The notes beneath the pieces were generated by a model. That model had not been told where the DNA came from, searched no databases, and saw nothing but the letters and a program-made list of their open reading frames with translations. The position numbers and the translations under genes were made by a program. DNA of 64,000 nucleotides from Brotaphodocola catenula. GTDB taxonomy: Bacteria > Bacillota > Clostridia > Lachnospirales > Lachnospiraceae. The stretch is taken from positions 1-64,000 of the forward strand of contig JAJEPU010000011.1 in the NCBI GenBank assembly GCA_020686985.1, read 5' to 3'. This document shows positions 1,139 to 27,524 of this stretch, one piece after another; the first letter of the stretch is position 1, and the number at the start of each line of letters is the position of its first letter.

Positions 1139-1283
1139 GGCGCGACGGAGGCTGAGAAGATTACATGCAAACCCGTGTGAGACGTCGGTGTTTAGACTGC
1201 GTACTTTGCAGTCTTATGCACCGCTACGTCGAACTCGGAGTGAGAACGAGTTTGCATGAATTTTACTCAGCCGTAGGAGCGCC
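1139..1283 (+). repeat. Structured intergenic repeat A, copy 1
   Basis: First of three related elements (others at 12921-13059 and 27387-27524). Paired segments, from outside in: GGCGC/GCGCC (1139-1143/1279-1283), GGCTGAG/CTCAGCC (1150-1156/1266-1272), ATGCAAAC/GTTTGCAT (1165-1172/1250-1257), then an arm with GACGT/ACGTC (1181-1185/1226-1230), CGGTG/CACCG and AGACTGC/GCAGTCT (1194-1200/1208-1214), and a short CTCG/CGAG arm (1234-1250). Stem sequences change between copies while pairing is kept. It lies in the gap between the LysR gene and the aconitase promoter. No coding role is apparent. Confidence 0.8.
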
Positions 1284-1378
1284 ACTTGTGTATCGCCATC
1301 TTATTGACATCATTTTCCGATCTGATTTTATCTATAATTTCAGTGTATCACGAAGCCCTCACGTTTGCAAGAAAATAC

Positions 1379-1396
1379 CATGAGTAAAAGCTCATG
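1379..1396. promoter_or_regulatory. Palindrome upstream of the acnA promoter
   Basis: CATGAG-6 nt-CTCATG, a perfect 6-bp inverted repeat, ends 22 bp before the -35 box of the aconitase promoter. Its place in the LysR/acnA divergent gap makes it a candidate operator. This is inference; no binding data. Confidence 0.4.
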
Positions 1397-1418
1397 ACAA
1401 TCAAGAAAATAATGGCAT

Positions 1419-1447
1419 TTTACAACTGAATGCACACTTGCTATAAT
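1419..1447 (+). promoter_or_regulatory. Sigma-A-type promoter of acnA-icd
   Basis: TTTACA (1419-1424), 17-bp spacer, TATAAT (1442-1447). Transcription would start near 1454 and leave a leader of about 120 nt before acnA. No riboswitch was recognised in that leader. Confidence 0.75.
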
Positions 1448-1574
1448 CGAATTATCAAATGAGAAATATAAAACCTCGGAGATTTGAAAGTTGAGCGAAC
1501 ATAGCACGGCTGATAGCACATTTCATAGGGCTTTAGTCAGTACCATATTTCATATGTAAAGGAGAAGCGTTATC

Positions 1575-3545
1575 ATGGCTCAGAACTTAACGAGAAAGAT
1601 TCTTGCGGCGCACCTTGCAAAATCGTCTGATATGATTCCCGGCGAGGAAATCTATCTGAGGGTAGATCAGACTTTAACTCATGACATCAACGCGGTTATG
1701 ACCTATCTTGCATTTGAGGCGATCGGCATCGACCGCATCGGTGTAGAGAAGGCAGTCAGCTACCTCGATCACAACCTGCTGTATCTGGACTTCAAGACTC
1801 CGGATGACCACATCTATTTACAGTCGGCAGCAGAGCGTTTTGGTGTACATGTTTCCCATCCGGGTAACGGAATATGCCATGCCGTTCAGGTATCCCGTTT
1901 CGGCGCACCTGGCAAGCTTTCTATGGGTGGTGACAGCCATACTCCTCACGGCGGTGCAATTGGCATGCTGTGTATCGGTGTTGGTGGTATGGACATCGCG
2001 ACAGCAATGACCGGTGTCCCGATGAGACTGAAAATGCCGAGAGTTATCAAGGTAAACCTGACCGGAGAGCTTCGTCCGGGTGTGAACTCCAAGGAAGTCA
2101 TTTTTGAGATGCTTCGCCGTGTGACGATCAAGGGTGGTCTTGGAAATGTATATGAGTATGTAGGACCGGGTGCTAAGACTCTTGAAGTTTCCCAGCGTGT
2201 GACGATCACGAACATGGGCGCTGAGATGGGTGCAACGACCTCGATCTTCCCGGCAGATGAGCAGGTTCGTAAATTTATGAGATCTCAGGGACGTGAAGAT
2301 GAGTTCGTAGAGATGCTCCCGGATGAGGGCTGTGAGTACGACGGTGAGATGGAGATCAATTTGAGCGAGCTTGAGCCGTTGATCGCCTGCCCGCATCAGC
2401 CGGACAACGTTATCCCGATAAGCGAAGTCGAGAAGAAGCCGGTTCAGCAGGTATTCATCGGAAGCTGTACGAATGCAAGCTACTCCGATATCGCAAAGGC
2501 AGCCCTCGTGATGCAGGGTCATCATGTAGCAGAGAATGTAAGCTGTACCTGTGCCGTTTCCACCAAGCAGATCTATCGCAAGCTGATGGAAGACGGATAC
2601 GCAGAGATGCTTCTTGATGCAGGCGTTCGTTTCCTCGAGGTCGCATGTGGACCGTGCTGTGCAATCGGTCAGTCACCGGCTACGAAGGGCGTTGCAGTTC
2701 GTACCTCCAACAGAAACTTCAAGGGACGTGCAGGTAACCCGAACGCAGAGATCTATCTGGTAAGCCCGGAGAGTGCCGCTGCAACCGCAATCGTTGGAAC
2801 CTTTGCAACCGTAGAGGAAGTGATGGGCGAGGATGTGAAGAAACTCGCTGAGATCAAAGAGCCGGAGATGTTCAAGATCGACGATTCGATGATCATCAGA
2901 CCGCTTCCGCTTGAGGAGGCAAAGAAGGTTGAGATCAAGCGTGGACCGAACATCGCTCCGCTTCCGGTTCCGGATGCTCCGGAAGATCATCTTGAGGCAA
3001 AGATCAGCTTAAAGACCGTGGACAACATTTCAACCGATGACATCACCCCGGCAAGTGCAGAGTTTTCAAGCATGCGTTCCAATATCCCGCTGATGTCGAA
3101 GTACTGCTATCACCGTTACGATCCGGAGTTCTCCGAGAGAGCAAAGAGCCTTGGAAAGAGCATCATCGTCGGTGGTGAGAACTACGGTCAGGGTTCTTCG
3201 AGAGAGCATGCAGCGATCAACCCGATGTATCTCGGCGTAAAGGCTGTCATTGCAAAGAGCATTGCAAGAATCCACAAGGGTAACCTTGTCAACCACGGAA
3301 TCATCCCGATGCTGTTTGAAGACCCGGCAGATTACGACAAAATCGATCAGATGGATGAGCTTGAGATCGAGAACCTCAGAGAGCAGATCAAGACGAGAGA
3401 AGTTGTGATTAAGGATAAAGATAAAAATGTGACGTTCAAGGCAAAACTGGATCTGTCCGATAGTGAGCTGGAAGTTATCCTCTGCGGTGGTCAGTTAAGA
3501 TACTTAAAGCATCAGCTTGAAGAGATGAGGAAGGAAGCAAAGTAA
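1575..3545 (+). CDS. acnA: Aconitate hydratase (aconitase family)
   Basis: This 656-aa protein belongs to the aconitase/isopropylmalate isomerase superfamily and is predicted to interconvert citrate and isocitrate in the cytoplasm using a [4Fe-4S] cluster. The three cluster cysteines are visible: C298 in GSCTNAS and C358/C361 in CGPCC. The N-terminal half holds the cluster domains and the C-terminal swivel domain follows (GGENYGQGSSREHAA region). The length fits the shorter bacterial aconitases rather than the roughly 900-aa AcnA. The start follows AAAGGAG at 1558-1564. Isocitrate dehydrogenase follows 35 bp downstream, so the pair forms a citrate-to-2-oxoglutarate operon feeding glutamate synthesis. 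Homoaconitase is possible but less likely with this partner. Confidence 0.92.
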   Translation: MAQNLTRKILAAHLAKSSDMIPGEEIYLRVDQTLTHDINAVMTYLAFEAIGIDRIGVEKAVSYLDHNLLYLDFKTPDDHIYLQSAAERFGVHVSHPGNGICHAVQVSRFGAPGKLSMGGDSHTPHGGAIGMLCIGVGGMDIATAMTGVPMRLKMPRVIKVNLTGELRPGVNSKEVIFEMLRRVTIKGGLGNVYEYVGPGAKTLEVSQRVTITNMGAEMGATTSIFPADEQVRKFMRSQGREDEFVEMLPDEGCEYDGEMEINLSELEPLIACPHQPDNVIPISEVEKKPVQQVFIGSCTNASYSDIAKAALVMQGHHVAENVSCTCAVSTKQIYRKLMEDGYAEMLLDAGVRFLEVACGPCCAIGQSPATKGVAVRTSNRNFKGRAGNPNAEIYLVSPESAAATAIVGTFATVEEVMGEDVKKLAEIKEPEMFKIDDSMIIRPLPLEEAKKVEIKRGPNIAPLPVPDAPEDHLEAKISLKTVDNISTDDITPASAEFSSMRSNIPLMSKYCYHRYDPEFSERAKSLGKSIIVGGENYGQGSSREHAAINPMYLGVKAVIAKSIARIHKGNLVNHGIIPMLFEDPADYDKIDQMDELEIENLREQIKTREVVIKDKDKNVTFKAKLDLSDSELEVILCGGQLRYLKHQLEEMRKEAK

Positions 3546-3580
3546 TAAATTTAGATATAGAGAAGAAAGGGCTATTTACA

Positions 3581-4743
3581 ATGAGTGACAACACCAAGAA
3601 CATTGAAATAGCACAGGAAAAATTTACAGAGCTGATCAAGTCTGAATTTGAGCGTATCGAGCGCATGAAGCAGGACAACGAGATCAAGGATTTCTCCAAG
3701 CAGGAGAAGATCGTCATCGGCGTACTGCCTGGCGATGGCATTGGTCCGATCATCATGGCACAGGCACTCCGCGTTCTGAAGACTCTGATGAAGGATGAGC
3801 TGGAATCCGGAAAGGTGGAGATCCGTGAGATCGAAGGCATGACGATTGAGCACCGAGCAGAGACCCTTCAGAGCCTTCCGGATGAGGTTCTGGCAGAGGT
3901 TAAGAAGTGTGATGTTATCCTTAAGGGACCGATGGTAACTCCGAGAGCTGGCGATCTGTGGCCGAACCTGTTAAGCGCAAACAGTCTTCTGCGCCGTAAC
4001 CTGGAGCTGTTCGTCCGATCAGGATTCCGGAGAAGAACATCGACTGGACCTTCTTCCGCGAGAATATCGAGGGCGAGTACATCTGGGGCAACAAGGGTAT
4101 TCAGGTAAATGATGACCTCGCAGTTGATTTCAAGGTACAGACCCAGCAGGAAACTGAGAGAATCGCCCGTGCAGCCTTTGATTTCGCAAGAAAGAACGGC
4201 AAGAAGAACGTGACGATCGTTACCAAGGCAAACATTGTAAAGCTGGCTGATGGAAACTTCATCAAGGGTGTCCGCAAAGTCGGTGAGGAGTATCCGGAGA
4301 TCGAGATTCAGGAGCGTCTTGTCGATGCAATGTGCGCAAAGATGCTTGATCCGGAGTTCAATAAGGGGATCGAGGTAATCGTACTTCCGAACCTCTACGG
4401 AGATATCGTAACCGATGTGGCAGCAGAGCATCAGGGAGGCTTAGGAACTGCTTCCTCTTCCAACATCGGAAATAAGTATCCAATGTTCAAGGCAATTCAC
4501 GGAACCGCTCCGTTCCTGATCAGCCACGGAAGAGGTCAGTACGCAGATCCGTGTTCCCTGATCCGTGCAGTCGGCATGCTCGTTGCACATATCGGATACG
4601 GCGACAGAAAACAGCTTCTTGACCGCGCACTCGACATCTGCACCATCACCGAGCGCAAACTCGTTGTGACGACTGATAAGGACGGTGCAACCGCAGAAGA
4701 GTTCACGACTTATCTGGTAGATACGATCAACGGACTGAAATAA
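3581..4743 (+). pseudogene. icd: Isocitrate dehydrogenase, frameshifted
   Basis: Together two frames encode a member of the isocitrate/isopropylmalate dehydrogenase family that would oxidise isocitrate to 2-oxoglutarate. Frame 2 runs from ATG 3581 to about 4012 (VLPGDGIGPIIMAQ near the N-terminus; ends ...RRNLELF). The reading then continues in frame 1 from 4012 (RPIRIPEKNIDWTFFREN) to the stop at 4741-4743. The family has about three residues between ELF and RP, so a loss of about 10 nt at 4012 explains both the missing residues and the frame change. Repaired length would be about 390 aa. As written, translation ends after 175 codons at 4108. It may be a real null allele or a sequence error. 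It is the second gene of the acnA operon. Confidence 0.85.
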
Positions 4744-4831
4744 AAATCAGTAATTGTTTAAATGAATTTGCACTTTCCCTGAAAATTCCTACCCATGTAC
4801 AGGAATGAACTGTCTACATATGACCTACGCA

Positions 4832-4880
4832 AGAAAGACTGCCGTGAGACATCGCCCTGGTGTTTTCCGGCAGTCTTTCT
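4832..4880 (+). terminator. Terminator of acnA-icd
   Basis: A perfect 13-bp stem (AGAAAGACTGCCG at 4832-4844 with its complement at 4868-4880) surrounds a 23-nt loop. The T-rich 3 prime arm (TCTTTCT) stands in for a long T-run. Confidence 0.7.
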
Positions 4881-4933
4881 GCTTCTTCGGGGAAAACTTC
4901 GCCCGGAAAATGTCCGTCTGTGTACAAAAAATC

Positions 4934-4960
4934 AAATTCCTATAAAAATAGTAGGAATTT
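4934..4960. promoter_or_regulatory. 9-bp inverted repeat before the cysE promoter
   Basis: AAATTCCTA (4934-4942) and TAGGAATTT (4952-4960) are perfect inverted repeats 9 nt apart. They end 22 bp upstream of the cysE -35 box, the usual place for an operator. A relative of the 5 prime arm (AAATTCCTA) also occurs near 4784-4792. Confidence 0.4.
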
Positions 4961-4982
4961 TGACGAGACGACAGGTTTTCCA

Positions 4983-5011
4983 TTGACAATTTCTCATCAA
5001 AATTATATAGT
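4983..5011 (+). promoter_or_regulatory. Promoter of cysE
   Basis: TTGACA (4983-4988), 17-bp spacer, TATAGT (5006-5011). The leader to the cysE start is about 88 nt, too short for a T-box, and no T-box sequence is present. Confidence 0.8.
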
Positions 5012-5105
5012 GGGAGATAACAGCGCTGAATTATGAAAGGCGATAAGGAAGCCGTTTCGGAGCTTGAGTCATAAACTAGAAGGAAGAACAGGTGAGGTCG
5101 AAACA

Positions 5106-5753
5106 ATGATTTTAAAAGATATCTGGCAGGATGTGAAGGCAGTTCAGGAGAGAGATCCTGCGGCACGCAATGCGTTGGAGGTTTTGATTTTGTATCAGGG
5201 TGTTCATGCTCTGATCTGGCATCGATTTGCGCATTGGTTTTATAAGCACCACATGTTTTTCATCGCGCGAATGATTTCTCAGATTGCGCGTTTCTTTACG
5301 CTGATTGAGATCCATCCGGGAGCAAAGCTCGGACATGGAATCCTGATTGATCACGGTTGCGGGGTCGTGATCGGAGAGACGGCAGAGGTTGGAGATAACT
5401 GCACGATCTATCAGGGAGTAACCCTCGGTGGTGTTGGTCTGAACAAGGGCAAGCGTCATCCTACCCTTGGAAATAACGTCACAGTGGGAGCGGGAGCAAA
5501 GATTCTCGGAGCATTTGAGGTTGGAGACAACTGTAAGATTGCGGCAAATGCCGTACTCTTGAAACCGCTTGAAAACGATACGACGGCTGTGGGTGTTCCG
5601 GCGCGTCCGGTCAAGGTCGGAGGTGTTCCGGTCAGGAAAACAGAAAAGCATGTCTCTGTTGAGACTTACAATCGGATGGAGGAGCGTGTGATCGAGTTAG
5701 AACAGGAGCTCAGACGGCTTCAGGCAGAACTCGAGGCTTCTCATGAGCAGTGA
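5106..5753 (+). CDS. cysE: Serine O-acetyltransferase
   Basis: This 215-aa enzyme is predicted to make O-acetylserine from serine and acetyl-CoA, the first step of cysteine synthesis. It has a short helical N-terminus followed by left-handed beta-helix hexapeptide repeats (about residues 75-190: HPGAKLGHGILIDHGCGVVI and similar) with the family histidines (H in HPGAKLG, DHGCG). The length matches the short Bacillus-type enzyme. The frame is open upstream, but ATG 5106 has a GGTGAGG ribosome site 8 nt before it. The gene stands alone with its own promoter. No cysteine synthase is adjacent. Confidence 0.95.
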   Translation: MILKDIWQDVKAVQERDPAARNALEVLILYQGVHALIWHRFAHWFYKHHMFFIARMISQIARFFTLIEIHPGAKLGHGILIDHGCGVVIGETAEVGDNCTIYQGVTLGGVGLNKGKRHPTLGNNVTVGAGAKILGAFEVGDNCKIAANAVLLKPLENDTTAVGVPARPVKVGGVPVRKTEKHVSVETYNRMEERVIELEQELRRLQAELEASHEQ

Positions 5754-5816
5754 TAGCGGATTCATATTTCTCAGATTTTCGCATAAATTTATCACAGACA
5801 AAAAGGTGATGCAGGC

Positions 5817-5886
5817 ATTGCGATTTGCACAATATATTTGCACAATGTATTTACACGACGTATTTGCATGATGTGCGAATCGCAAT
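5817..5886. repeat. Hairpin enclosing degenerate 15-bp tandem repeats
   Basis: ATTGCGATT (5817-5825) pairs perfectly with AATCGCAAT (5878-5886). The 52-nt loop is built from about four degenerate copies of a 14-15 bp unit (TATTTGCACAATG-like). It lies between cysE and sipL. No T-run follows, so it is not a typical terminator. Confidence 0.55.
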
Positions 5887-5907
5887 CATCAGGCGGGGAG
5901 AGAGAAG

Positions 5908-7524
5908 ATGGAGATGTTGGAACTGGTAAGACAACAGATACAGATGAATCGATGGAAAAATCAGGTAGGCACGCAGGTGACGCTCGACGATGATTTTATC
6001 ATACCGGATACGATGAGCGATGCGGATCAGATGATTCTGAGCGCGGGAGAGATCCAGCTGGAACCGTTAAAAATTCAGGACGGAAGAGTCCTGGTGCGGG
6101 GAAAGCTGGATTTTCACGTCTTATACCGGAGAGAAGAGGGCGGAATGCAGACGCTCGGCGGTTCGATTCCATTTGAAGAGCCGGTCAATGTCCCGGATGT
6201 GAATGCACAGGATGATGTGAGCGCAGGAGGCTATCTTGAGGATCTGAATGCAGAACTGATTCACTCGAGAAAATTCGGAATCCGCGCAGTCGTCCGTCTT
6301 GAGATCAAGGCGGAGACGCGGATGGATACGGAGGTGACAGTTGATGTCGCAGACCGGGAGAATGAGGAGAGCGATGATCCGCCAAAACTTTTGATGCAAC
6401 ACAGAAAACTTGAGGTCGCAGGACTTGTGCTTCACAGAAAAGATACATGGCGGATGAAGGAGGAGCTGACGCTCTCACCGAGTAAACCGGCGATCGGGAG
6501 AATGCTCTGGACGCAGGTTGCTCTCGGAAACATGCAGGTTCGACCGGAAGACGGAAGGGCTCATCTCGAGGGTGTCTTGAATGTCTTTGTGATTTACGAG
6601 GGGGAAAGCGGAGAGGAGACGATCTCGTGGATGGAGGAGAGCATTCCGTTCTCTGGCGATCTTGAGATGCCGGGATGCAGACCGGATCTGATCCTTGCGG
6701 TCAGCCCGAAACTTATTCACCGCGGTGTTGAGGAAAAGCCGGATTACGATGGGGAAATGCGCCAGATCGAGGTCGATGCGATTGCGGAGCTCGATGTTCG
6801 TCTGTATGAGGAAAAAGAGCTGGAGCTTCTTGCGGATCTCTATTCGACAAATCGGGAGGTGACTTTAGAGATTGGAAAGGCCTGCTTTGATCAGATTTTG
6901 ACGCATAATGCGGGCAAATGTCGGGTCGCTGAGAAGCTTGATCTCGGAAAAATTGGAAAAGTGCTTCAAATCTGTCACAGCAGTGGAAGTGTGAAGCTCG
7001 ATGCCGTCGAGCCGGGCGAGGAGGTACTCTCGATTGATGGAGCACTTGAGGTTCAGCTCCTCTGTCTGACGGATGAGGACGACCGACCGATTCAGTCGGT
7101 GACGGAACTTTTTCCGTTCCACTACGATGCGTCTGCGCCGGGAATTCATCCCGACAGTATCTGGTATCTCGACAGCAATACCGAACAGCTGACCGCTGTG
7201 ATGAACGGGGGAAATCTTGCGGAAATCAAGGCGGTAGTAAATCTGGATGTTCTGATTCTTCAACCGGTGACCTGTCCGGTGATTGAGCGCGTGCAGGTGG
7301 AGGAGGCGGACCGCAAAAAAATGCGGGAACTTCCGGGAATCGTCGGTTATCTTGTTCAGGAGGGCGATACGCTCTGGGAGATCGCAAAACGCTTTCACAC
7401 GACACCGGAGAGCATTGTCGAGGGAAATGGATTAAACAGCGATGAGGTCAGGGCGGGAGACTGCCTGATTCTTGTCAAAGAGATTGATCGGCAGGCAGTC
7501 ACAACGGCGGGGCGTTCCTCATAG
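5908..7524 (+). CDS. sipL: SipL-like spore morphogenesis protein (SPOCS/DUF3794 plus LysM)
   Basis: This 538-aa soluble protein has repeated DUF3794/SPOCS regions (about residues 40-150, 190-300 and 340-460) and a C-terminal LysM domain (about 485-530, GYLVQEGDTLWEIAKRFHTT). This is the architecture and approximate length of SipL of Clostridioides difficile, which binds the coat ATPase SpoIVA through its LysM domain to localise the spore coat around the forespore. No signal peptide or membrane span is seen, consistent with action in the mother cell. The start has a GGGGAGAGAGAAG site. It indicates a spore-forming organism or lineage. Function by homology; the interaction itself is inferred. 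Confidence 0.88.
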   Translation: MEMLELVRQQIQMNRWKNQVGTQVTLDDDFIIPDTMSDADQMILSAGEIQLEPLKIQDGRVLVRGKLDFHVLYRREEGGMQTLGGSIPFEEPVNVPDVNAQDDVSAGGYLEDLNAELIHSRKFGIRAVVRLEIKAETRMDTEVTVDVADRENEESDDPPKLLMQHRKLEVAGLVLHRKDTWRMKEELTLSPSKPAIGRMLWTQVALGNMQVRPEDGRAHLEGVLNVFVIYEGESGEETISWMEESIPFSGDLEMPGCRPDLILAVSPKLIHRGVEEKPDYDGEMRQIEVDAIAELDVRLYEEKELELLADLYSTNREVTLEIGKACFDQILTHNAGKCRVAEKLDLGKIGKVLQICHSSGSVKLDAVEPGEEVLSIDGALEVQLLCLTDEDDRPIQSVTELFPFHYDASAPGIHPDSIWYLDSNTEQLTAVMNGGNLAEIKAVVNLDVLILQPVTCPVIERVQVEEADRKKMRELPGIVGYLVQEGDTLWEIAKRFHTTPESIVEGNGLNSDEVRAGDCLILVKEIDRQAVTTAGRSS

Positions 7525-7670
7525 AATGGAATAGGTTGCTGACCGTGCACAATGCGGGCAGGAATCAGAACCGGGCTCCGCATCCGGAGGATGCTTCTCA
7601 TAGATCAGGGAAACCTGGGGGATGGCAGAGGACTGCGCAGACAATGCCATCTCCTACATAGCCGGGTCCA

Positions 7671-7698
7671 TTGACTTTTTACCCTGCACTGGTATAAT
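7671..7698 (+). promoter_or_regulatory. Probable promoter of the acyltransferase gene
   Basis: TTGACT (7671-7676), 16-bp spacer, TATAAT (7693-7698). The 100 nt before it (7525-7670) contain a GATGGCA/TGCCATC inverted repeat near 7620-7652 and nothing else recognisable. Confidence 0.65.
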
Positions 7699-7820
7699 TT
7701 TCTTAGAATGTTTTTTTAGATATTTGCAGTCAGCCACATGGAAAATCGCATAAAAAAGGTGAGATTAAAGGTGAGATGGCTGTGAGGCAGGGAGGTCAGG
7801 GAACGGAGGGAGGCGACCGG

Positions 7821-8909: not shown

Positions 8910-8935
8910 ACTTTTGATGGGCTTTTCGATATAAT
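8907..8935 (+). promoter_or_regulatory. Probable promoter of the HAD gene
   Basis: TAGACT (8907-8912), 17-bp spacer, TATAAT (8930-8935), overlapping the last codon of the acyltransferase gene. Confidence 0.5.
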
Positions 8936-8995
8936 AAAGAGCACGGATGAGAAGAAACATCATGAGAAGATGCGGAAAAATACTTGGAGGAAACT

Positions 8996-9628: not shown

Positions 9629-9654
9629 GGACGGCGGAGAAATCAATCAAACAT

Positions 9655-9756
9655 GAACGGAATGAAAAATCAAAAGTAAAAGAAAAATGGAAACTGGAAA
9701 AGAAACAGAAAAAGAAACAAAAAACTGGAAAAGAAACTGGAAAGGAAACATGAAAC
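9655..9756. repeat. Purine-rich degenerate repeat leader
   Basis: About 100 bp consisting almost only of A and G, built from variants of GAAAC and AACTGGAAAAG. It forms the leader of the aminopeptidase gene and supplies its ribosome site. Similar tracts precede gltX (11280-11365), the DUF1700 gene (35440-35659) and aspA (53870-53970). Confidence 0.6.
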
Positions 9757-12920: not shown

Positions 12921-13059
12921 GGCGACGACAGCGGAAGAAAGTCATGCAAACGCGCTCGCGCTCCGGGTTCAACGTAGCGGTGCATAAGGTTGCAAAATAC
13001 GCAACCTAAGCACCGACGTTTCACACGGGTTTGCCTGTACTTTCCCGCCTTACGTCGCC
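12921..13059 (-). repeat. Structured intergenic repeat A, copy 2 (inverted)
   Basis: On the minus strand this copy has the same branched fold as copies 1 and 3. Outer stem GGCGACG/CGTCGCC (13053-13059 with 12921-12927 in + coordinates), then GCGGGAAAG with CTTTC..CCGC, GCAAAC/GTTTGC, and an inner arm with AACGT/ACGTT, CGGTG/CACCG and AGGTTGC/GCAACCT. Every changed base in AACGT and AGGTTGC relative to copy 1 is matched by a change in its partner. It lies between gltX and the helicase gene, opposite in orientation to both. Confidence 0.8.
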
Positions 13060-13129
13060 GGCAATAAAACGGCTTCAGCAATGAAAAACCAAGGTGTTTT
13101 AGCAATACAAGTACATTTGTAAATTGGCG

Positions 13130-13299: not shown

Positions 13300-15264
13300 A
13301 TGGCATTTCACGAGTCACAGATCGAGGCGATTCATCACTTTGAGGGACCGATGATGGTGCTTGCAGGTCCGGGATCGGGCAAGACAACGGTGATCACGCA
13401 CCGGGTTCGCTGTCTGATTGAGGAGCATGGGGTGAATCCATCAAACATTCTGGTGATCACGTTTACGCGCTCGGCAGCGGAGGAGATGAAGCAGAGATTC
13501 TGGAAGTTGATGGAGACTTCATCGAAACAGGCAGAAGAAAACATGCAGGGGCGAAGAAGCGTTGAATGTGGAAGCGGGGGGCATCCTCCGGTAAATTTTG
13601 GCACGTTTCATGCTGTGTTTTTTAACATTCTTCGCCATGCTTATCGTTATGACGCCTCCTGTATTATACGGGAGGAGGAGCGGACGGAGATCCTCCGAAA
13701 AATGATTGAAAGACTGCACCTTGAGTTGGAGGATGAGAAAGAATTCATCTCCTCGATTTTGTCGGAGATCGGTGTTGTCAAAGGCGAGATGATGAGCCTT
13801 GATTATTATTACTCAAAAAACTGCTCGGAGGAGATTTTTCGCAGGCTTTATCAGGGATACCAGTCAGAGCTTGAGCGGAGTGGCAAAATTGATTTCGAGG
13901 ATATGCTTGTAATGTGCTATGAGCTGTTTACCCAGAGAAAGGATATTTTGAGTGCGTGGCAGAGAAAGTTTCAATTTATTCTGATCGATGAATTTCAGGA
14001 TATCAATCGGGTGCAGTATGAGATCGTGAAAATGCTTGCGCTTCCCCAGAATAATCTCTTTATTGTTGGAGATGATGATCAGTCAATCTATCGCTTTCGC
14101 GGGGCTAAGCCGGAGATCATGCTTGGATTTTGAAAGGACTATCCACAGTGCAGACAGGTACTTTTGGGGATTAATTATCGGTCAACGTCCGAGATTGTGG
14201 ATGCGTCGGAGAGGCTGATTTCTCATAATAAGACGCGTTTTCCGAAGGAGATTCATGCAAATCGTGGAGCGGGACATCCGGTGACGACAACAGGATGGTT
14301 GGATGCGCAGGCGGAGACGAGAGGAATTGTGCGGGAGATTCAGGATTATGTGCGGATGGGGTATCAGCTGTCGGATATTGCCGTGCTCTATCGGACGAGT
14401 ATGGAACCGCGTCTGCTGATGGAACGTCTGATGGAGTACAACATCCCATTTCAGATGCGGGATGCCCTGCCGAATTTGTATGAGCACTGGATTGCAAAAG
14501 ATATTCTTGCTTATCTGAGAATCGGGCACAGTGAACTCTGCGCGAGACGTCAGGCAAAGCGCGAGGATGCTTTGCGGATTGCGAATCGCCCGAAGCGTTA
14601 CATCAGTCGGGAAGCACTTGAGGGAGGTGTGATTTCGTGGGATCAGGTACAGTCCTGGTATCAGGATAAGGACTGGATGATGGATCGGATCGATGATCTT
14701 TGCAGTGACTTGAAAATGATTGGCAGGATGGCCCCGGCACCGGCGATCAATTACATCCGAAAGGCAGTCGGATACGATGAGTATCTCAGGGAGTATGCTG
14801 AGTTTCGCAGAATGAATCCGGAGGAACTTTTTGAGGTCGCGGATCAGATTCAGGAGAGTGCGAGTGGGTATCAGACGCTTGAGGCATGGGAGGAGCACCA
14901 GAGAGAGTATGCAGAAAAACTCAAAACACAGGCGCTGGCGCACGGAAGAGAGAATGGACAGAAAATGGACTGTGTGACCTTAATGACGATGCATAGTTCA
15001 AAAGGACTGGAATTTCCGATCGTGTACATTTTAGATGCAAATGAGAGAATTATACCCCATCACAAGGCAGTGCTTGAGGCAGATCTCGAGGAGGAACGGC
15101 GCATGTTCTATGTCGCAATGACAAGGGCGAAAGATCGACTTCACGTCTGCTTTGCAAGACAGCGATACGGGAAAATTCAGGAGCCGTCGCGTTTTCTTGC
15201 AGAGTACAGAAATGTAGAAACGGGAAAAACAGATAAGGGAAATAAGCAAAATACGATAAATTAG
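13300..15264 (+). pseudogene. UvrD/PcrA-like helicase with an in-frame stop
   Basis: A 654-codon superfamily 1A DNA helicase reading frame interrupted by TGA at 14131-14133 (codon 278). Both halves are in the same frame, so this is a nonsense change, not a frameshift. Motifs: Walker A AGPGSGKTT (22-30), Walker B region DEFQDINRVQYE, VGDDDQSIYRFRGA before the stop; LLGINYRST, TMHSSKGLEFP and the motif VI MFYVAMTRAKDRL after it. The stop falls where relatives have a charged residue before DYP. It is shorter than PcrA (about 730 aa) and resembles the compact UvrD-like helicases of Clostridia. It could be a real null allele, a strain polymorphism or a sequence error. Confidence 0.85.
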
Positions 15265-15283
15265 GACAGGAGGCTTTTGATTT

Positions 15284-19989: not shown

Positions 19990-20068
19990 AAAGAGTGAAA
20001 GCTAATTGGGTTATTTGATTAGAAATCAGAAATTCAGAAATTCACATACAGTACAGGAGGAGTCAAAA

Positions 20069-21730
20069 ATGAGAAGTGATAACGCAAAAGCTGGAATGCA
20101 ACAGGCACCGGCACGTTCCCTGTTCCGCGCGTTGGGACTGACGGACGAAGAATTAGAGAGACCGTTAATCGGTATTGTGAGCTCCTACAATGAGATTGTA
20201 CCGGGACATATGAACCTGGATAAGATTGTAGACGCCGTTAAGCAGGGTGTGGCAATGGCAGGAGGCGTTCCGATCGTGTTCCCGGCAATCGCAGTATGTG
20301 ATGGTATTGCAATGGGACATGTGGGAATGAAGTACTCTCTGGTGACGAGAGATCTGATCGCAGATTCCACCGAGTGTATGGCAATGGCTCATCAGTTTGA
20401 TGCCCTTGTCATGGTTCCGAACTGTGATAAGAACGTTCCGGGACTTCTGATGGCAGCAGCTCGTTTAAACATCCCGACCGTATTTGTCAGTGGTGGTCCG
20501 ATGCTTGCAGGTCATGTGAAAGGACGCAAGCGCAGTCTTTCCAGCATGTTTGAGGCAGTTGGCTCCTACGCAGCAGGTACGATGACTGAGGAGGATGTAA
20601 AAGAGTACGAGTGCAAGGTTTGTCCGACCTGTGGTTCCTGCTCCGGTATGTACACCGCAAACAGCATGAACTGTCTGACAGAGGTTCTCGGAATGGGTCT
20701 TCGCGGAAACGGCACGATCCCGGCTGTATATTCCGAGCGTCTTGTTCTTGCAAAGCATGCCGGCATGGCAGTTATGGATATGCTCAAGAAGAATATCCGC
20801 CCGCGTGACATCATGACCGAGCAGGCGTTCCGCAATGCTCTGACGATGGATATGGCACTTGGATGCAGTACGAACAGCATGCTTCATCTGCCGGCAATCG
20901 CACACGAGGCTGGTGTTGAGCTGAACGTTGACATCGCAAACGAGATCAGTGCAAAGACCCCGAACCTGTGTCACCTTGCACCGGCAGGTCCGACCTACAT
21001 GGAGGATTTGAACGAGGCAGGCGGTATCTATGCCGTTATGAAAGAGATAAGCAAGCTCGGACTTCTGAACCTCGATTGTATGACCGTAACCGGAAAGACT
21101 GTTGGCGAGAACATCAAGAATGCTGTCAACCATAATCCGGAAGTCATCCGCACAATTGACAATCCGTATTCCAGGACCGGTGGTATCGCTGTTCTTCGCG
21201 GAAACCTTGCACCGGATTCCTGCGTGGTAAAACGTTCTGCTGTTGTTCCGGAGATGCTTGTGCATGAGGGACCGGCCCGCGTCTTCGACTGCGAGGATGA
21301 TGCGATTGTCGCAATCAAGAGCGGTAAGATCGTGGCTGGTGATGTCGTTGTCATCCGTTACGAGGGACCGAAGGGAGGCCCGGGAATGAGAGAGATGCTC
21401 AACCCGACTTCCGCAATCGCAGGAATGGGACTTGGCTCTTCCGTAGCACTGATCACAGACGGACGTTTCTCCGGAGCATCCAGAGGAGCATCCATCGGAC
21501 ATGTATGCCCGGAGGCGGCAGCAGGTGGTCCGATCGGTCTGGTAGAGGAAGGCGACATGATCGCAATCGACATCAATGCGAATACGATCACGCTGAAAGT
21601 ATCCGATGAGGAACTGGCAAGACGTCGTGCAAACTGGACTCCTAAGAAGAAAGAGGTTACCGGATATCTGAAGCGTTACGCACAGCTCGTGACAAGCGCA
21701 GACAAGGGAGCAGTATTGCAGGGAAATTAA
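20069..21730 (+). CDS. ilvD: Dihydroxy-acid dehydratase
   Basis: This 553-aa Fe-S enzyme dehydrates 2,3-dihydroxyisovalerate and its isoleucine analogue in valine/isoleucine synthesis. Cluster cysteines are visible in PNCDKNVPG and [19 protein letters not shown]. The family [15 protein letters not shown] segment is near the C-terminus. The start at 20069 follows AGGAGGAG; the frame is open further upstream. It lies 79 bp after leuB and 25 bp before ilvB. Confidence 0.96.
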
Positions 21731-21755
21731 TGTGAGATAAAGGGGAGTGTTTGCT

Positions 21756-23462
21756 ATGGCGGAGACGAGAGTACTCAATGGCTCGGAGATCGTGATTGAA
21801 TGCCTGAAGGAGCAGGGTGTCAAGACGGTATTCGGTTATCCGGGCGGAGCAATTTTAAATATTTATGATGCGCTTTACAAGCATCAGGATGAGATTCATC
21901 ACATTCTGACCTCACATGAGCAGGGCGCAGCACATGCAGCAGACGGCTATGCGCGTGCAACCGGAAAAGTCGGTGTCTGCTTTGCAACTTCCGGACCGGG
22001 TGCAACAAACCTGGTTACCGGTATTGCAACTGCATACATGGATTCTATCCCGATTGTTGCGATCACCTGTAACGTTGGTGTGAGCCTGCTTGGACGCGAC
22101 AGTTTTCAGGAGATCGACATCACCGGCGTGACGATGCCGATCACAAAATATAACTTCATCGTGAAGGATGTCAGCAAGCTCGCAGACGTTGTCCGCAGAG
22201 CATTCAAGATTGCTCAGAGCGGACGTCCGGGTCCGGTTCTGATCGATATCACGAAGGATGTGACCGCAGCAGAATATCCGTATGAGCCGAAGACTCCGGA
22301 GCCGATCGTTCCTCAGACAGACACGATCCGCGAGGAGGACATCGAGACTGCACTTGACCTGATTCGCAACGCAAAGAAGCCGTTTATCTTTGTCGGCGGT
22401 GGTGCAGTTCTGTCAAATGCATCCGAGGAGCTTCGCACTCTGGCACATCGGATTCAGGCTCCGGTTGCCGATTCCCTGATGGGAAAAGGCGCATTCGACG
22501 CAACTGACGAGCTCTACACTGGTATGGTCGGCATGCACGGAACAAAGACTTCCAACTTCGGAATCACCGAGTGTGATCTGCTGATTGTTGCGGGCGCACG
22601 TTTCAGTGACCGTGTAACCGGAAATGCATCCAAGTTCGCAAAGAATGCAAAGATTCTTCAGATCGATGTCGATGCGGCAGAGATCAACAAGAACATTCGC
22701 ACCCATGCGAGCGTTGTCGGAGATTTAAAGACGGTTCTGAGAAAACTCAATGCCCGTCTTGACCCGATCAACCATGAGGAGTGGCTTGCTCATATTGAGC
22801 GTCTGAAAGATATGTATCCGCTTCGCTACGACAAGAGCCAGCTGACCGGTCCGTTTATCATGGAGACGATCAGCGAGCTGACACAGGGAAATGCAATCAT
22901 CGCAACTGAGGTTGGCCAGCATCAGATGTGGGCTGCCCAGTATTACAAATACAGAAAACCGAGAACCCTTCTGACGTCCGGCGGTCTCGGCACGATGGGC
23001 TACGGCCTTGGTGCTGCGATGGGCGCGAAGATGGGATGTGGAGATATGGGATGTCCGGATACTCCGGTCTTCAATATTGCCGGTGACGGATGCTTCCGCA
23101 TGAACTTAAATGAGCTTGCGACGGCTTCCCGTTACAACATTCCGGTGATTGAAGTGGTCATCAACAACCACGTTCTCGGCATGGTGCGCCAGTGGCAGAC
23201 GCTGTTCTACGGAAAGCGTTATTCCGCGACGGTGCTTGACGATCAGGTTGACTTTGTGAAGACCGCAGAGGGACTTGGTGTCAAGGCATACCGCGTGACC
23301 GGAAAGGACGACTTAAAGGGCGTTCTTGAGGAAGCGATGGCTCATCAGGGTCCGGTTGTGATTGACTGTCAGATAAATTGTGACGACAAGGTATATCCGA
23401 TGGTATCCCCGGGCGCTCCGATTCAGGACGCCTTTGATGATACAGATTTAAAGATTAATTAG
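21756..23462 (+). CDS. ilvB: Acetolactate synthase, large subunit
   Basis: This 568-aa thiamine diphosphate enzyme condenses pyruvate to acetolactate (or with 2-oxobutyrate). The catalytic Glu lies in SHEQGAAHAADGYARATG and the ThDP/Mg motif is GDGCFRMNLNELATASRYNI...INN. AGGGGAG precedes the ATG at 21756 by 8 nt. A small regulatory subunit gene (ilvN) does not follow; it may be elsewhere or this may be a subunit-independent enzyme. Length and sequence fit the biosynthetic large subunit. Confidence 0.95.
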   Translation: MAETRVLNGSEIVIECLKEQGVKTVFGYPGGAILNIYDALYKHQDEIHHILTSHEQGAAHAADGYARATGKVGVCFATSGPGATNLVTGIATAYMDSIPIVAITCNVGVSLLGRDSFQEIDITGVTMPITKYNFIVKDVSKLADVVRRAFKIAQSGRPGPVLIDITKDVTAAEYPYEPKTPEPIVPQTDTIREEDIETALDLIRNAKKPFIFVGGGAVLSNASEELRTLAHRIQAPVADSLMGKGAFDATDELYTGMVGMHGTKTSNFGITECDLLIVAGARFSDRVTGNASKFAKNAKILQIDVDAAEINKNIRTHASVVGDLKTVLRKLNARLDPINHEEWLAHIERLKDMYPLRYDKSQLTGPFIMETISELTQGNAIIATEVGQHQMWAAQYYKYRKPRTLLTSGGLGTMGYGLGAAMGAKMGCGDMGCPDTPVFNIAGDGCFRMNLNELATASRYNIPVIEVVINNHVLGMVRQWQTLFYGKRYSATVLDDQVDFVKTAEGLGVKAYRVTGKDDLKGVLEEAMAHQGPVVIDCQINCDDKVYPMVSPGAPIQDAFDDTDLKIN

Positions 23463-23492
23463 TAACCAACAACCGAATAGCGAGAGAGTCCG

Positions 23493-23627
23493 TCTGAAAA
23501 ACATCAACAGGGTTTTTCAGATATACTCGGAAACATGTCAAACTGCATGCGGGAGTCTGCTCCCGCATATGTAGTGGTAGTGCTTCTATTTACAGAATGG
23601 TTTGTCATTTTATTTGCATCATTCTGT
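23493..23627 (+). other. Three hairpins between ilvB and serC
   Basis: Perfect stems TCTGAAAAAC/GTTTTTCAGA (23493-23502/23512-23521), ATGCGGGAG/CTCCCGCAT (23547-23555/23560-23568) and ACAGAATG/CATTCTGT (23592-23599/23620-23627). The first, with T5 in its 3 prime arm, may terminate ilvB. The others lie in what could be the serC leader. No T-box or known riboswitch sequence was found. Confidence 0.5.
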
Positions 23628-23681
23628 GGATGAAACATGAAGGAAAACTCCAAGAGAGAATAGAGAGAGGGAGGAACAAAC

Positions 23682-24767
23682 GTGGGAAGAGTGTATAATT
23701 TTTCGGCTGGCCCGGCTGTACTGCCGGAGGAAGTTCTGAGAGAGGCAGCAGAGGAGATGCTGGACTATAAGGGAACCGGTATGTCCGTGATGGAGATGAG
23801 TCATCGCTCCAAGGCGTTTGAGACGATCATTCAGGAGGCAGAGCAGGATCTGCGTGATCTGATGAACATTCCGGATAACTACAAGGTTCTGTTTTTACAG
23901 GGTGGTGCACATTTACAGTTTTCAGCGATTCCAATGAACCTGATGAAGAATCGCGTTGCTGACTACATCATCACGGGTCAGTGGGCGAAGAAGGCGTACA
24001 AAGAGGCTCAGAAATACGGAAAGGCAGTTGCGGTTGCGTCAAGTGAAGACAAGACGTTCAGCTACATTCCGGATTGCTCCGATCTGCCGATCGATGAAGA
24101 TGCCGATTACGTTTACATCTGTGAGAACAACACGATTTACGGAACGAAGTTCAAGACTTTGCCGAACACGAAAGGAAAACCGCTTGTATCTGATATCTCT
24201 TCCTGTTTCCTGTCTGAGCCGGTTGATGTGACGAAATACGGTCTGCTCTACGGTGGTGCTCAGAAAAATGTGGGACCGGCAGGTGTTGTCATTGTGATTG
24301 TCAGAGAGGATCTTGTGACCGAGGATGTGCTTGACGGAACTCCGACGATCTGCATGTACAAGACTCAGGCAGATGCAAAATCCCTTTACAATACTCCGCC
24401 GGCATATGGCATTTATATCTGCGGAAAGGTCTTCAAGTGGATCAAGAAGCAGGGTGGTCTTGAGGCGATGAAGGAGTACAACGAGAAAAAGGCAAAGATT
24501 CTCTACGATTTCCTTGACCAGAGCAAGCTGTTCCACGGAACGGTTGCAAAGGAAGATCGTTCTCTGATGAATGTTCCGTTTGTAACCGGTGATCCGGATC
24601 TTGATGCAGAGTTTGTAAAGGAGGCAGCTTCTGCTGGATTTGTGAACTTAAAGGGACATCGCACGGTTGGCGGTATGCGTGCAAGTATCTACAACGCAAT
24701 GCCGATCGAGGGCGTACAGAAACTGGTAGAATTCATGAAGAAGTTTGAGGAGGAACATCAGGCATGA
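23682..24767 (+). CDS. serC: Phosphoserine aminotransferase
   Basis: This 361-aa PLP enzyme makes phosphoserine from 3-phosphohydroxypyruvate and glutamate. Signatures: NFSAGPAVLPEEVL at the N-terminus, MEMSHRSK, LLYGGAQKNVGPAG containing the PLP lysine, and GHRTVGGMRASIYNAMP near the C-terminus. It starts with GTG 23682 after GAGGGAGG. Its last codons overlap serA by 4 bp (ATGA), so the two are translationally coupled. Confidence 0.97.
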   Translation: MGRVYNFSAGPAVLPEEVLREAAEEMLDYKGTGMSVMEMSHRSKAFETIIQEAEQDLRDLMNIPDNYKVLFLQGGAHLQFSAIPMNLMKNRVADYIITGQWAKKAYKEAQKYGKAVAVASSEDKTFSYIPDCSDLPIDEDADYVYICENNTIYGTKFKTLPNTKGKPLVSDISSCFLSEPVDVTKYGLLYGGAQKNVGPAGVVIVIVREDLVTEDVLDGTPTICMYKTQADAKSLYNTPPAYGIYICGKVFKWIKKQGGLEAMKEYNEKKAKILYDFLDQSKLFHGTVAKEDRSLMNVPFVTGDPDLDAEFVKEAASAGFVNLKGHRTVGGMRASIYNAMPIEGVQKLVEFMKKFEEEHQA

Positions 24768-25924
24768 GAAAAATTCACTGCTTAAATGCAATTTCCAAGC
24801 ATGGCACCGACCTGCTGACAGCTGACTATGAGCTGACTGACAATGTGAAGGAGGCAGAGGGCATTCTTGTCCGCAGTGCATCTCTTCATGAGATGGAGTT
24901 CCCGAACTCTCTGCTGGCAGTTGCCCGCGCCGGCGCAGGTGTCAACAACATCCCGCTTGACGCTTGTGCACAGGAAGGTATTGTTGTATTCAATACTCCG
25001 GGTGCAAATGCAAATGCAGTAAAAGAGCTGGTAATCGGCGCTTTGATGCTGGCTTCCCGCGATATTCTCGGAGGAATCAACTGGTGCATCGACAATGCAG
25101 AGGATGCAAATATTGCAAAGTCTGTTGAGAAAGCGAAGAAGGCCTTTGCCGGATGCGAGATCCGCGGAAAGAAACTAGGCGTGATCGGTCTTGGTGCGAT
25201 CGGTGCAGAGGTTGCAAATGCCTGCGCCGGTCTCGGCATGGAAGTATATGGCTACGATCCGTTTATCTCGGTTCAGGCAGCATGGATGCTTTCAAGAGAT
25301 GTCAAGCACACGACGAGCCTCGACACGATTTTCCAGGAGTGCGATTACATCACGCTTCATGTGCCGGCACTTGACAGCACAAAGGGTATGATCAACAAGA
25401 ATGCCCTTGAGCAGATGAAGGATGGCGTTGTCGTTCTGAATTTTGCTCGTGACCTTCTCGTTGACGAGGACGCAATGGCAGAGGCACTTGCATCTGGAAA
25501 AGTAAAGCACTACATGACCGATTTCCCGAACACGAAGTCTGTACATATGAAGGGAGCAATTGTTACCCCGCATATCGGTGCATCCACGGCAGAGTCTGAG
25601 GACAACTGTGCAAAGATGGCAGTGAAGGAGATCATGGACTATATCGAGAACGGAAATATCCGCAATTCCGTAAATTATCCGGCATGCGATATGGGTGTGA
25701 AGAAGACCGTTGCCCGTGTGGCAGTTCTGCATCTGAATATTCCGAACATGATCGGTCAGATTACCGGTGTCCTCGCAGGTGGCGGAATCAACATTTCCGA
25801 CATGACGAACAAGAGCCGTGATAAATATGCATACACGCTGATGGATCTCGAGTCCGTTCCGGATGACATTCTTGTTCAGAAGCTGAACGCCATTCAGGGG
25901 GTTCTGCGCGTGCGCGTTCTGTAA
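24764..25924 (+). CDS. serA: D-3-phosphoglycerate dehydrogenase
   Basis: This 386-aa enzyme oxidises 3-phosphoglycerate, the first step of serine synthesis. It has the D-isomer 2-hydroxyacid dehydrogenase fold with the NAD-binding GLGAIGAEVANACAGLG and the catalytic His region VTPHIGASTAESEDN, then a C-terminal ACT domain (about 315-386) of the kind used for serine feedback. Its start overlaps serC. The partner phosphatase serB is not adjacent. Confidence 0.96.
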   Translation: MRKIHCLNAISKHGTDLLTADYELTDNVKEAEGILVRSASLHEMEFPNSLLAVARAGAGVNNIPLDACAQEGIVVFNTPGANANAVKELVIGALMLASRDILGGINWCIDNAEDANIAKSVEKAKKAFAGCEIRGKKLGVIGLGAIGAEVANACAGLGMEVYGYDPFISVQAAWMLSRDVKHTTSLDTIFQECDYITLHVPALDSTKGMINKNALEQMKDGVVVLNFARDLLVDEDAMAEALASGKVKHYMTDFPNTKSVHMKGAIVTPHIGASTAESEDNCAKMAVKEIMDYIENGNIRNSVNYPACDMGVKKTVARVAVLHLNIPNMIGQITGVLAGGGINISDMTNKSRDKYAYTLMDLESVPDDILVQKLNAIQGVLRVRVL

Positions 25925-26013
25925 ATATAATGCGCAGTGATTCTGATTAGAAGATGTCAGCAGAGCTGACCAGAATTACGCGCCAAGTCGATGACTGCAT
26001 CGTCTTAAATCTA

Positions 26014-26922
26014 TTATTCCAAGAGCCGTTTGAGATCGAGTCTTCCCCAGCCCTGCTGGTTGTGGGAGAGCCCGAGATCGACGGCTCTTTCTCTTAGGCG
26101 GAGCTTTACATCGCGGTTTGACATTTCCGGATATTTTTCGAGAAGCAGGGCAATCGCGCCGGTGACGAGAGGGGTCGCCATGCTTGTTCCGCTCTTTGCA
26201 ATATATCCCTGTGACGAGGTGCAGCAGCTTGTGATCGAAGCGCCCGGGGCGATGATGTCCGGTTTGCAGATACAGGCACAGGTAGGTCCGCGTCCTGAGT
26301 AGTGAACCATGCGATTTCCCATAATCAGGATCTCTTTCTCATCATCGGAACAGCCAACCGTGATGACTTTTCGGCTGATCCCCGGAGTTGTGATCGAACT
26401 GCGTTCAGGTCCACGGTTTCCGGCGGCGACAACGACGACAAGTCCAGCATCCCAGGCGGTATCGACTCCGCGGACGAGGACGGAATTTTCGCCCATATTT
26501 CTTCGGGAAAACGAGCCGACAGAGATATTGACGATCCGAATGCCAAATTGTTTCTGATGCTGGCGAATCCAGCGCAGACCGGCGAGGACATCCGAGGCGC
26601 GACCGCTTCCCTGACGATCGAGCACTTTGACAGGAATCAGCGTGCATCCGGGGGCAATTCCGCGAAAACGCCCATCGGAAAGACTGCCATTTCCCGCAAT
26701 AATTCCGCAGACGTGGGTGCCATGTCCATTGTCGTCATAGGGCAGAACTCTGTGCCCTAGAATATCGCAGAAAGCCCCGATCTGACCGCTAAGATCCGGG
26801 TGGGGAGCACAGCCGGTATCAAGAACAGCGACTCCGATGCCGGCTCCGGTCAAATTACAGTCGTCATTTCCGTTTATGAGAAGTCTTGCATGATCCATGA
26901 GAATCCAATTTCCCGGACACAC
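26014..26922 (-). CDS. Subtilisin-like serine protease (S8)
   Basis: This protein of up to 302 aa has the S8 catalytic triad: D35 (VAVLDTG), H67 (NGHGTHVCG) and S247 (SGTSMATP). No signal peptide or propeptide is seen, so it resembles intracellular or minimal subtilases of Clostridia. Start is uncertain: GTG 26922 gives 302 aa and ATG 26898 gives 294 aa, and neither has a good ribosome site. An ACACAC/GTGTGT inverted repeat overlaps the GTG. It is a lone minus-strand gene between serA and recA. Confidence 0.88.
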   Translation of the reverse strand: MCPGNWILMDHARLLINGNDDCNLTGAGIGVAVLDTGCAPHPDLSGQIGAFCDILGHRVLPYDDNGHGTHVCGIIAGNGSLSDGRFRGIAPGCTLIPVKVLDRQGSGRASDVLAGLRWIRQHQKQFGIRIVNISVGSFSRRNMGENSVLVRGVDTAWDAGLVVVVAAGNRGPERSSITTPGISRKVITVGCSDDEKEILIMGNRMVHYSGRGPTCACICKPDIIAPGASITSCCTSSQGYIAKSGTSMATPLVTGAIALLLEKYPEMSNRDVKLRLRERAVDLGLSHNQQGWGRLDLKRLLE

Positions 26923-27093
26923 CTGAGCGTGTGTCTGAAATGCCTTTCGTTGTTATTATAGGATATTCAGAAAAAAGAGTCCTGACATCGAAAATTGATC
27001 GAGAGGATTACCGGAAATAATCTTAATAATTTCTTCAGAATCTATTTAAACAATATACATTTTTTTACGAAAATGATGTGTTATACTAAAGCC

Positions 27094-27189
27094 ATAATAA
27101 ATGCAGGAAACAATCCTTAGTCCTTTTGAAATCGGAATTCCTAACACGAACAAGCACCCTGTGTCCCCCATCACGACACAGGGTGTTTG
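27094..27189 (+). ncRNA. Candidate small RNA with its own terminator
   Basis: A TATACT -10-like box at 27082-27087 (no good -35, AT-rich upstream) is followed by about 60 nt and then a perfect 11-bp terminator stem, CACCCTGTGTC (27155-27165) with GACACAGGGTG (27175-27185), then TTTGT. No gene upstream on this strand needs this terminator: the neighbouring protease runs the other way, and serA ended 1.2 kb earlier. A 39-codon ORF from ATG 27101 runs through the terminator and has no ribosome site. The transcript is inferred. Confidence 0.4.
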
Positions 27190-27386
27190 TGACAGCAGGT
27201 TTTTAAATAAGTCTTTGTAAAGTTCATAAATTTTTATCTGTTTTACTCATGGCGCATCGCCGGAGATTCATAATTTATTATAAGTATTTCATTCATAAAG
27301 TTTTTTGTATACAAGATAATCGAATAATCCTTTTTTGCAATATAATTTTTATAAATGTATGAGAGAAGGTGAAAATAAAGAGAACA

Positions 27387-27524
27387 GGCTCTGACGGCGG
27401 GAAAGATTCTGCAAATCCGTGTGAGACGTTGGTGTTTAGACCGCGTAGTTTGCGGTCTTATGCACCATTACGTCGAACTCGGAGCGCGAGCGTATTTGCA
27501 GGACTTTATCCGCCGGACAGAGCC
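27387..27524 (+). repeat. Structured intergenic repeat A, copy 3
   Basis: Outer stem GGCTCTG/CAGAGCC (27387-27393/27518-27524), then CGGCGG with CCGCCG, GAAAG with CTTT, TGCAAAT/ATTTGCA, and an inner arm with GACGT/ACGTC, TGGTG/CACCA and AGACCGC/GCGGTCT, plus a CTCG/CGAG arm. TGCAAAT, TGGTG and AGACCGC each differ from copy 1 with a matching change in the partner strand. It lies upstream of the recA promoter; a TATAAT at 27341-27346 could transcribe through it. Confidence 0.8.

Follow-up and report, generated by a model that had tools for sequence, protein, structure and literature searches.

A dispersed intergenic repeat with a branched, GNRA-capped arm in Brotaphodocola catenula and other Lachnospiraceae

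Described repeats and three copies in the window

The enterobacterial ERIC sequence is a simple and mostly intergenic repeat, and integron attC sites are recognised by conserved R''/R' core sites and stand in cassette arrays. The element reported here differs from attC sites in that its outer helix varies in sequence across genera and its copies are dispersed, with no arrays. REP/REPIN sequences and BIMEs (PMC3116915, PMC3733652) are dispersed intergenic palindromes, single or in inverted doublets, for which single-stranded hairpin processing is implicated. REPs are given a size of 20-40 bp and a GTAG or CGTC tag, and tagged REPs are listed for other phyla, the word "Firmicutes" being absent from the available text (PMC3733652). 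Like REP, REPIN and BIME sequences, our element is intergenic and dispersed and occurs both as single arms and as inverted doublets. Its arms measure about 120-140 nt, contain a three-way junction and have variable ends, and so differ from REPs in size and tag as defined in that text. Unlike in REP/REPIN systems, the presence of a Y1 (RAYT-type) transposase does not follow the element.

The pneumococcal BOX, RUP and SPRITE repeats are also small, structured and intergenic, with 107 bp for RUP. In the accessible part of PMC3049150, trans-mobilisation by IS elements is suggested for BOX and RUP. The repeats are described there in S. pneumoniae and S. suis and are over-represented between convergent genes. 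As RUP and SPRITE are portrayed in that part, they share with our element, in its own genome and in relatives, a preference that leaves few copies between divergent genes. No sequence link to BOX, RUP or SPRITE was seen within the same text, and the element is set apart from them by its occurrence in 104 of 249 genera of one family, its two-sided covariation and its GNRA three-way junction. ERIC, with 127 bp (PMC3049150, available part), is similar in length and likewise mostly intergenic, a comparison made by description only. In layout and placement the element resembles REPIN/BIME or BOX-type repeats, and we class it among the dispersed structured repeats. Unusually, a branched, GNRA-capped arm is retained across much of one bacterial family, and the ends of the element change around it. 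In the accessible text found by a literature search on the topic and on known repeat families (including PMC3733652, PMC3049150, PMC8040213 and PMC12306157) the element was undescribed; the 3161 candidates of PMC8040213 may include it.

The window is a stretch of 64,000 nucleotides from Brotaphodocola catenula (assembly GCA_020686985.1, contig JAJEPU010000011.1, positions 1 to 64,000). A sequence-only reading had reported three copies of one nested hairpin fold in it. Copies 1 and 3 were confirmed on the plus strand at the coordinates given in that reading. Copy 2 was confirmed as an element and lies on the minus strand, which the reading had left unmentioned. The copies and their parts are as follows.

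1139..1283, plus strand: copy 1, full length, outer stem GGCGC/GCGCC; cmsearch core 1150-1271, 126.2 bits; fold energy -75.8 kcal/mol, z -9.4
1173..1238, plus strand: copy 1, long inner arm (P4), which has a tandem G-A mismatch, an internal loop UUUA/UUAUG and an apical stem that varies; from structure counts and sequence
1240..1247, plus strand: copy 1, short side hairpin GU-GAGA-AC (GNRA tetraloop); from sequence and the family tetraloop census
12921..13060, minus strand: copy 2, full length, outer stem GGCGACG/CGTCGCC; cmsearch core 12930-13050 minus, 129.5 bits; fold energy -71.5 kcal/mol, z -6.5
12963..13028, minus strand: copy 2, long inner arm (P4); from structure counts and sequence
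12954..12961, minus strand: copy 2, short side hairpin GC-GCGA-GC (GNRA tetraloop); from sequence and the family tetraloop census
27386..27525, plus strand: copy 3, full length, outer stem GGCTCTG/CAGAGCC; cmsearch core 27395-27514, 131.2 bits; fold energy -78.5 kcal/mol, z -9.5
27417..27482, plus strand: copy 3, long inner arm (P4); from structure counts and sequence
27484..27491, plus strand: copy 3, short side hairpin GC-GCGA-GC (GNRA tetraloop); from sequence and the family tetraloop census

As had been proposed, the three copies share the same nested fold, with the outer, GGCGG, GCAAA, inner and short-arm stems all present. The short arm, previously named after a CTCG motif, is real; a 2-bp hairpin closed by a GNRA loop describes it more accurately. 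For each copy, 0 of 200 shuffles matched its stability. The covariance model R1 (see below), run on the window, returned the three copies at E < 1e-33 together with three weak shadows on the opposite strand.

According to Pfam, the genes next to copy 1 encode a LysR-type regulator and a member of the aconitase family, those next to copy 2 a class I Glu/Gln-type tRNA synthetase and a UvrD-type helicase; copy 3 is flanked by recA and a gene for an S8 peptidase. Since it adjoins recA and the Glu/Gln-tRNA synthetase gene here, the element may affect transcripts of core genes. The UvrD-type helicase itself may be split across consecutive ORFs (window 13300-14133 and 14164-15264); a Pfam search of the first of these, 277 aa long, matched the N-terminal helicase domain. 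Elsewhere in the window, eight tRNA genes are clustered on both strands at 43435-44716.

Fold of the arm and covariation

The outer stem is of the GGCKMCG type; it often contains a tandem G-A step, in place of which other copies have Watson-Crick pairs. Inward of it follow GGCGRG/CYCGCC with AAAG/CTTT, then TGCAAAC/GTTTGCA, and then a three-way junction. One branch of the junction is the 2-bp hairpin capped by a tetraloop. The other is the inner arm, which is built from CCG/CGG, a tandem G-A mismatch, GACG/CGTC, a two-base bulge and YRGTG/CACYR, with the UUUA/UUAUG loop and the variable apical stem in its distal part. Outer stems differ among copies and mostly still pair, which agrees with the earlier remark that the ends vary while pairing holds. 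Unpaired positions and GNRA loops are conserved at fixed places while the stems change. Among 73 copies the tetraloop was GAGA in 31, GAAA in 21, GCGA in 7, GGGA in 7, GCAA in 5, GGAA in 1 and AAGA in 1. Hence 72 of 73 are GNRA loops; the third base is a purine in all 72, and GNYA was not seen. RNAalifold on the MAFFT alignment suggested an alternative junction pairing near the side hairpin. This alternative varies on one side only and was rejected in favour of the GNRA hairpin, because the second pair of the latter shows two-sided changes.

The compensating base changes noticed in the three window copies were then evaluated in larger sets and exceeded chance. In an alignment of 28 copies from the same genome (A3), 95.2% of the cells pair and two-sided changes occur in 24 of 46 pairs; these values for pairing and two-sided change were reached by 0 of 500 shuffles and 0 of six slid controls. 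Among 53 matches in relatives, 49 of them distinct (A4), 91.5% pair, with two-sided changes at 42 of 46 pairs, and in 74 copies from 47 genome records (A6), a set including one fragment and the three window copies, 91.4% pair, with two-sided changes at all 46 pairs, both alignments having been fitted to the model and being biased towards its structure. The number of further pair types was a weaker measure: among 500 shuffles, 34 on A3, 27 on A4 and 1 on A6 reached its value.

Covariation was tested with our own tree-aware script, which is similar to R-scape and is not R-scape itself. It uses a G statistic with average-product correction, and its null columns are simulated along a FastTree tree with as many changes as were observed. 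In the model-fitted alignment of 73 sequences, 34 of the 46 pairs were significant; the total was 36 significant column pairs, each within or adjoining the fold. A structure-blind MAFFT alignment of the same copies gave 13 significant column pairs, of which 12 lie in the fold, and the MAFFT alignment of the own-genome copies gave six, all in the fold. The covariation check that had been put forward with the first reading therefore gave a positive result, and its proposal of selection on a folded single strand, RNA or single-strand DNA, is backed by the two-sided changes together with these tests. The element also supplies a large natural set of compensatory changes and a covariance model that can be used for annotation.

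Wobbles are few overall, apart from one near-constant G-U pair. In the outer helix of the modelled strand we counted 54 G-U against 14 A-C, and in the inner P4 helix 24 A-C against 15 G-U. Taken with the tetraloops, the wobble pattern leans towards selection on the modelled strand as RNA; single-stranded DNA would also be compatible with it.

Copies, gene context and distribution

A blastn search gave 34 matches across the 3.32-Mb draft of the window genome. Thirty were aligned as loci, and model R1 was built from 28 of them, two insertion-bearing copies being excluded. The expectation that the genome holds more copies was borne out with this covariance model. It returned 57 matches at E <= 0.1. 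By our own count these are 42 full-length copies, 8 arm-less copies, 5 shadows on the opposite strand and 2 weaker, short matches of 61 and 47 nt. Of the full-length copies, 37 have a core of 120-123 nt and five are 162-163 nt long with an extra hairpin. The arm-less copies measure 57-58 nt and are without the inner arm. The five long copies exceed the other full-length ones by about 42 nt, and the two that were aligned, L027 and L029 (G000:C54 and C68, G000 being the window genome), carry an identical extra hairpin beside the junction despite differing stems.

Genes of the window genome were called with a dicodon caller, as longest-ORF calls were wrong near recA, and genes of relatives by longest ORFs. 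We placed 48 of the 50 listed own copies among genes (40 full-length, 8 arm-less). Among the 48, overlap with a called gene never exceeds 30 bases; four lie between divergent genes. The 3'-side gene is convergent on the element in 38 of 48, and with co-directional neighbours the antisense orientation prevails over sense, 24 to 4 (p 0.0002). Among 58 copies in relatives, 19 were antisense, 18 sense, 15 convergent and 4 divergent, and long ORFs are overlapped by 3. In relatives, too, copies between divergent genes are scarce; antisense orientation as a family rule was rejected, since it holds in the window genome only. ORF clusters at 131 loci were viewed by size and position for a common neighbouring gene, and no transposase was recognised. 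At least one position is apparently common to two species (G005 and G034), so that some copies may be old and static.

These data bear on the view that the element is a functional structured RNA, a 3'-UTR element or a small RNA, which was multiplied through its usefulness and for which mobility is incidental. We consider this unlikely, while it is the alternative that survives best. The G-U excess of the outer helix (54 to 14) and the GNRA tetraloops (72 of 73) are what such an RNA would lead one to expect, but in the inner P4 helix A-C exceeds G-U (24 to 15). It would likewise fit the window genome, where 38 of 48 copies have a convergent gene on the 3' side and antisense outnumbers sense 24 to 4; however, by longest-ORF calls orientation is unbiased in the 58 relative copies (19 antisense, 18 sense), and the neighbouring genes appear unrelated by eye. 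Moreover, the double-arm units described below oppose their arms, so only one arm per transcript is in the GNRA sense.

Relatives elsewhere in Lachnospiraceae, also sought by covariance model, were readily found. With R1, 17 of 61 genomes were positive, the own genome included, and none of 24 same-order genomes outside the family gave a match. With model R2 at E <= 1e-6 and at most 14 candidates scored per genome, 104 of 250 Lachnospiraceae genomes were positive, so that about two in five sampled family genomes carry the element; in 45 of the 104, at least 10 of the scored candidates were matches. By genus, the arm core is present in 104 of the 249 sampled. A phylum sample of 299 genomes, with 12 candidates per genome scored, gave 4 matches (own included), all in the same family; the 295 negatives are counted for the phylum sample as a whole. 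A pattern scan of genome contigs matched one named record, Candidatus Mediterraneibacter merdavium, a Lachnospiraceae species. Plasmids and phages gave no match to blastn with one copy as query, nor did viral contigs in two IMG/VR pattern scans.

In line with the first impression that no known family could be recognised, Rfam 15 gave no match to the element at the gathering threshold for the window, for copy 3 with flanks or for 19 relative loci. The window scan found tRNAs only, copy 3 with its flanks gave 2 chance matches up to E 10, and the 19 relative loci gave 5 sub-threshold matches. The best of the latter, at 33 bits with a threshold of 100 and E 0.0043, aligned the L064 copy to a miRNA model of animal type. 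A clostridial RNA family, Clostridiales-1 RNA (RF01699), matched weakly beside a single copy, L179, on the opposite strand and overlapping one end of the copy (24 bits against a threshold of 48, E 0.48). Being below threshold and restricted to L179, this match was taken as chance.

Units, termini and the mobile reading

Taken together, we hold it somewhat probable that the three elements are members of a dispersed, non-autonomous mobile repeat family whose conserved part is the folded arm and which, in the searches made, was seen only in Lachnospiraceae. This reading is drawn from the 42 full-length copies dispersed in one genome, the intergenic placement, the modular units and the conserved fold. 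The conserved unit is a long helix leading to a three-way junction, from which branch a short GNRA-capped hairpin and a longer inner arm bearing fixed mismatches and internal loops. Such units may spread by an enzyme acting in trans and encoded away from the copies, with target duplication at insertion. The arm would be retained through recognition of its folded single strand, whether by the mobilising enzyme in the course of mobility or by a host factor through which insertions become tolerable. Termini differ between genomes, whereas the folded arm persists. The element offers a case in which to ask whether the shape of a folded strand can maintain a mobile repeat.

Arrangement of the arms was compared in relatives. 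Of 15 pairs of neighbouring arms, 12 face outward, 0 inward and 3 are direct; six of the 12 outward loci were fetched as pairs, and without them 6 of 9 are outward and 0 inward. G157 also carries direct runs of arms. In G035 we found closely similar units in which two different arms, opposed and outward-facing, are combined with a linker hairpin and an outer inverted repeat; the one measured (L147) has 461 bp. These units are bounded by an inverted repeat of the type TATACCTTGTCGTGC, and their ends are commonly TATACC...GGTATA. The units of G084 measure about 220 and 500 bp and are bounded by TAAACTG[TC]AGNTTAAA. With up to 2 mismatches allowed, the motif at the G084 termini, TAAACTGTAGNTTAAA, was counted 145 times and its reversed control 13 times; some sites are counted on both strands because the motif is near-palindromic. 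TA stands at both outermost ends in 14 of 20 fetched G084 stretches, the searched motif itself beginning with TA. Copies in G153 have the common right end AATTTA. In the window genome, inspection by eye revealed neither common termini beyond the variable outer stem nor TA-ended termini, and for its own copies no empty site or clear target duplication; the nearest relative among 24 genus genomes has a recA that is 82% identical.

The element had at first been called unlike a usual MITE. This holds in the window genome and fails in G035 and G084, where MITE-like units that have conserved terminal inverted repeats enclose the arm. Because of this location of the arm, the mobile-repeat reading fits better than a plain RNA gene. 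Compared with MITEs feature by feature, terminal inverted repeats are seen in G035 and G084, whereas the window genome shows only the variable outer stem. The TA...TA ends of G084 (14 of 20), common also in G035, are compatible with target-site duplication, and none was seen in G000. For an autonomous partner, no unit of transposase length was present among the G084 terminal motif matches listed.

Two candidate movers were rejected. Y1 transposase (PF01797) is absent from the element-bearing genomes G004, G005, G014, G018, G037 and G046, and the presence of Y1/RAYT does not track the element. An IS630-type DDE_3 transposase was found as genes or remnants in 2 of 12 positive genomes (G000 and G035), and is absent from G084 and G153; viewed by eye, the inverted repeats that flank it in G000 differ from the element. 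The mobile reading has its counterpoints: no Y1 or DDE_3 is linked to the element, empty sites were not seen, G005 and G034 appear to have a position in common, and neither blastn of plasmids and phages with one copy nor the two viral-contig scans found the element, unlike many mobile elements.

A bolder version of the mobile reading is a family-wide mobile element that is identified by its folded RNA arm, a GNRA-capped three-way junction with fixed non-canonical pairs, and read by a trans-acting factor while the termini are replaced between genera. We regard this as speculative and unlikely. If true, the element would correspond in bacteria to the short interspersed elements that are recognised by their structure.

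That the element is an ordinary MITE from a known family of insertion sequences, with the arms as mere cargo palindromes, seems decidedly improbable. The terminal inverted repeats and TA ends of G035 and G084 would suit it, and DDE_3 genes or remnants exist in G000 and G035, but this transposase is absent from 10 of the 12 positive genomes tested and the inverted repeats at the G000 gene look unlike the element by eye. Furthermore, the arm core is found in 104 of 249 genera while the termini of G000, G035, G084 and G153 differ, which is the reverse of what is expected of cargo.

Changes within copies were also recorded. Seven of the eight arm-less copies have lost P4 between AACCCG repeats at the arm base, and the eighth at another short repeat. 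The pattern of arm loss suggests hairpin slippage during replication, across an extruded hairpin. Short tandem duplications occur just outside the right end in 13 of 50 own copies (L046, L060 and L054 are examples) and outside the left end in 1 of 50. The background was 26 of 665 intergenic 45-mers, giving p 4e-7 for the right flank against these 45-mers. In relatives, scanned with slightly different settings, 1 of 63 had a flank tandem duplication on either side, and as a feature of the own genome only it was rejected as a clue to mechanism. The arm loss between repeats (7 of 8) and the right-flank duplications (13 of 50 vs 1 of 50) would agree with long palindromes being kept matching by template-switch (quasi-palindrome) mutation and no selection on the fold, but we consider this very unlikely, because it would also erase the fixed mismatches, bulges and internal loops, which are among the most conserved positions across genera, and because G-U and A-C intermediates both occur.

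Several relatives contain further palindromes in or beside the arms. In L165, L166, L167 and L172 (G035), a long palindrome of about 150 nt is nested in arm A, with about 6 arm bases on both sides, and is perhaps a second small palindromic element inserted near the arm tip. Hairpins such as CCCGAAAAGGTATACCTTTTCGGG overlap or abut unit ends in L119 and L151 (G035), resulting in mosaic palindrome clusters. In L111 (G034:C3), an unrelated long inverted repeat lies between two arms at 1830-2025; its arms read TAGTATAACCCGTTTTAAATA..., and it is perhaps another MITE.
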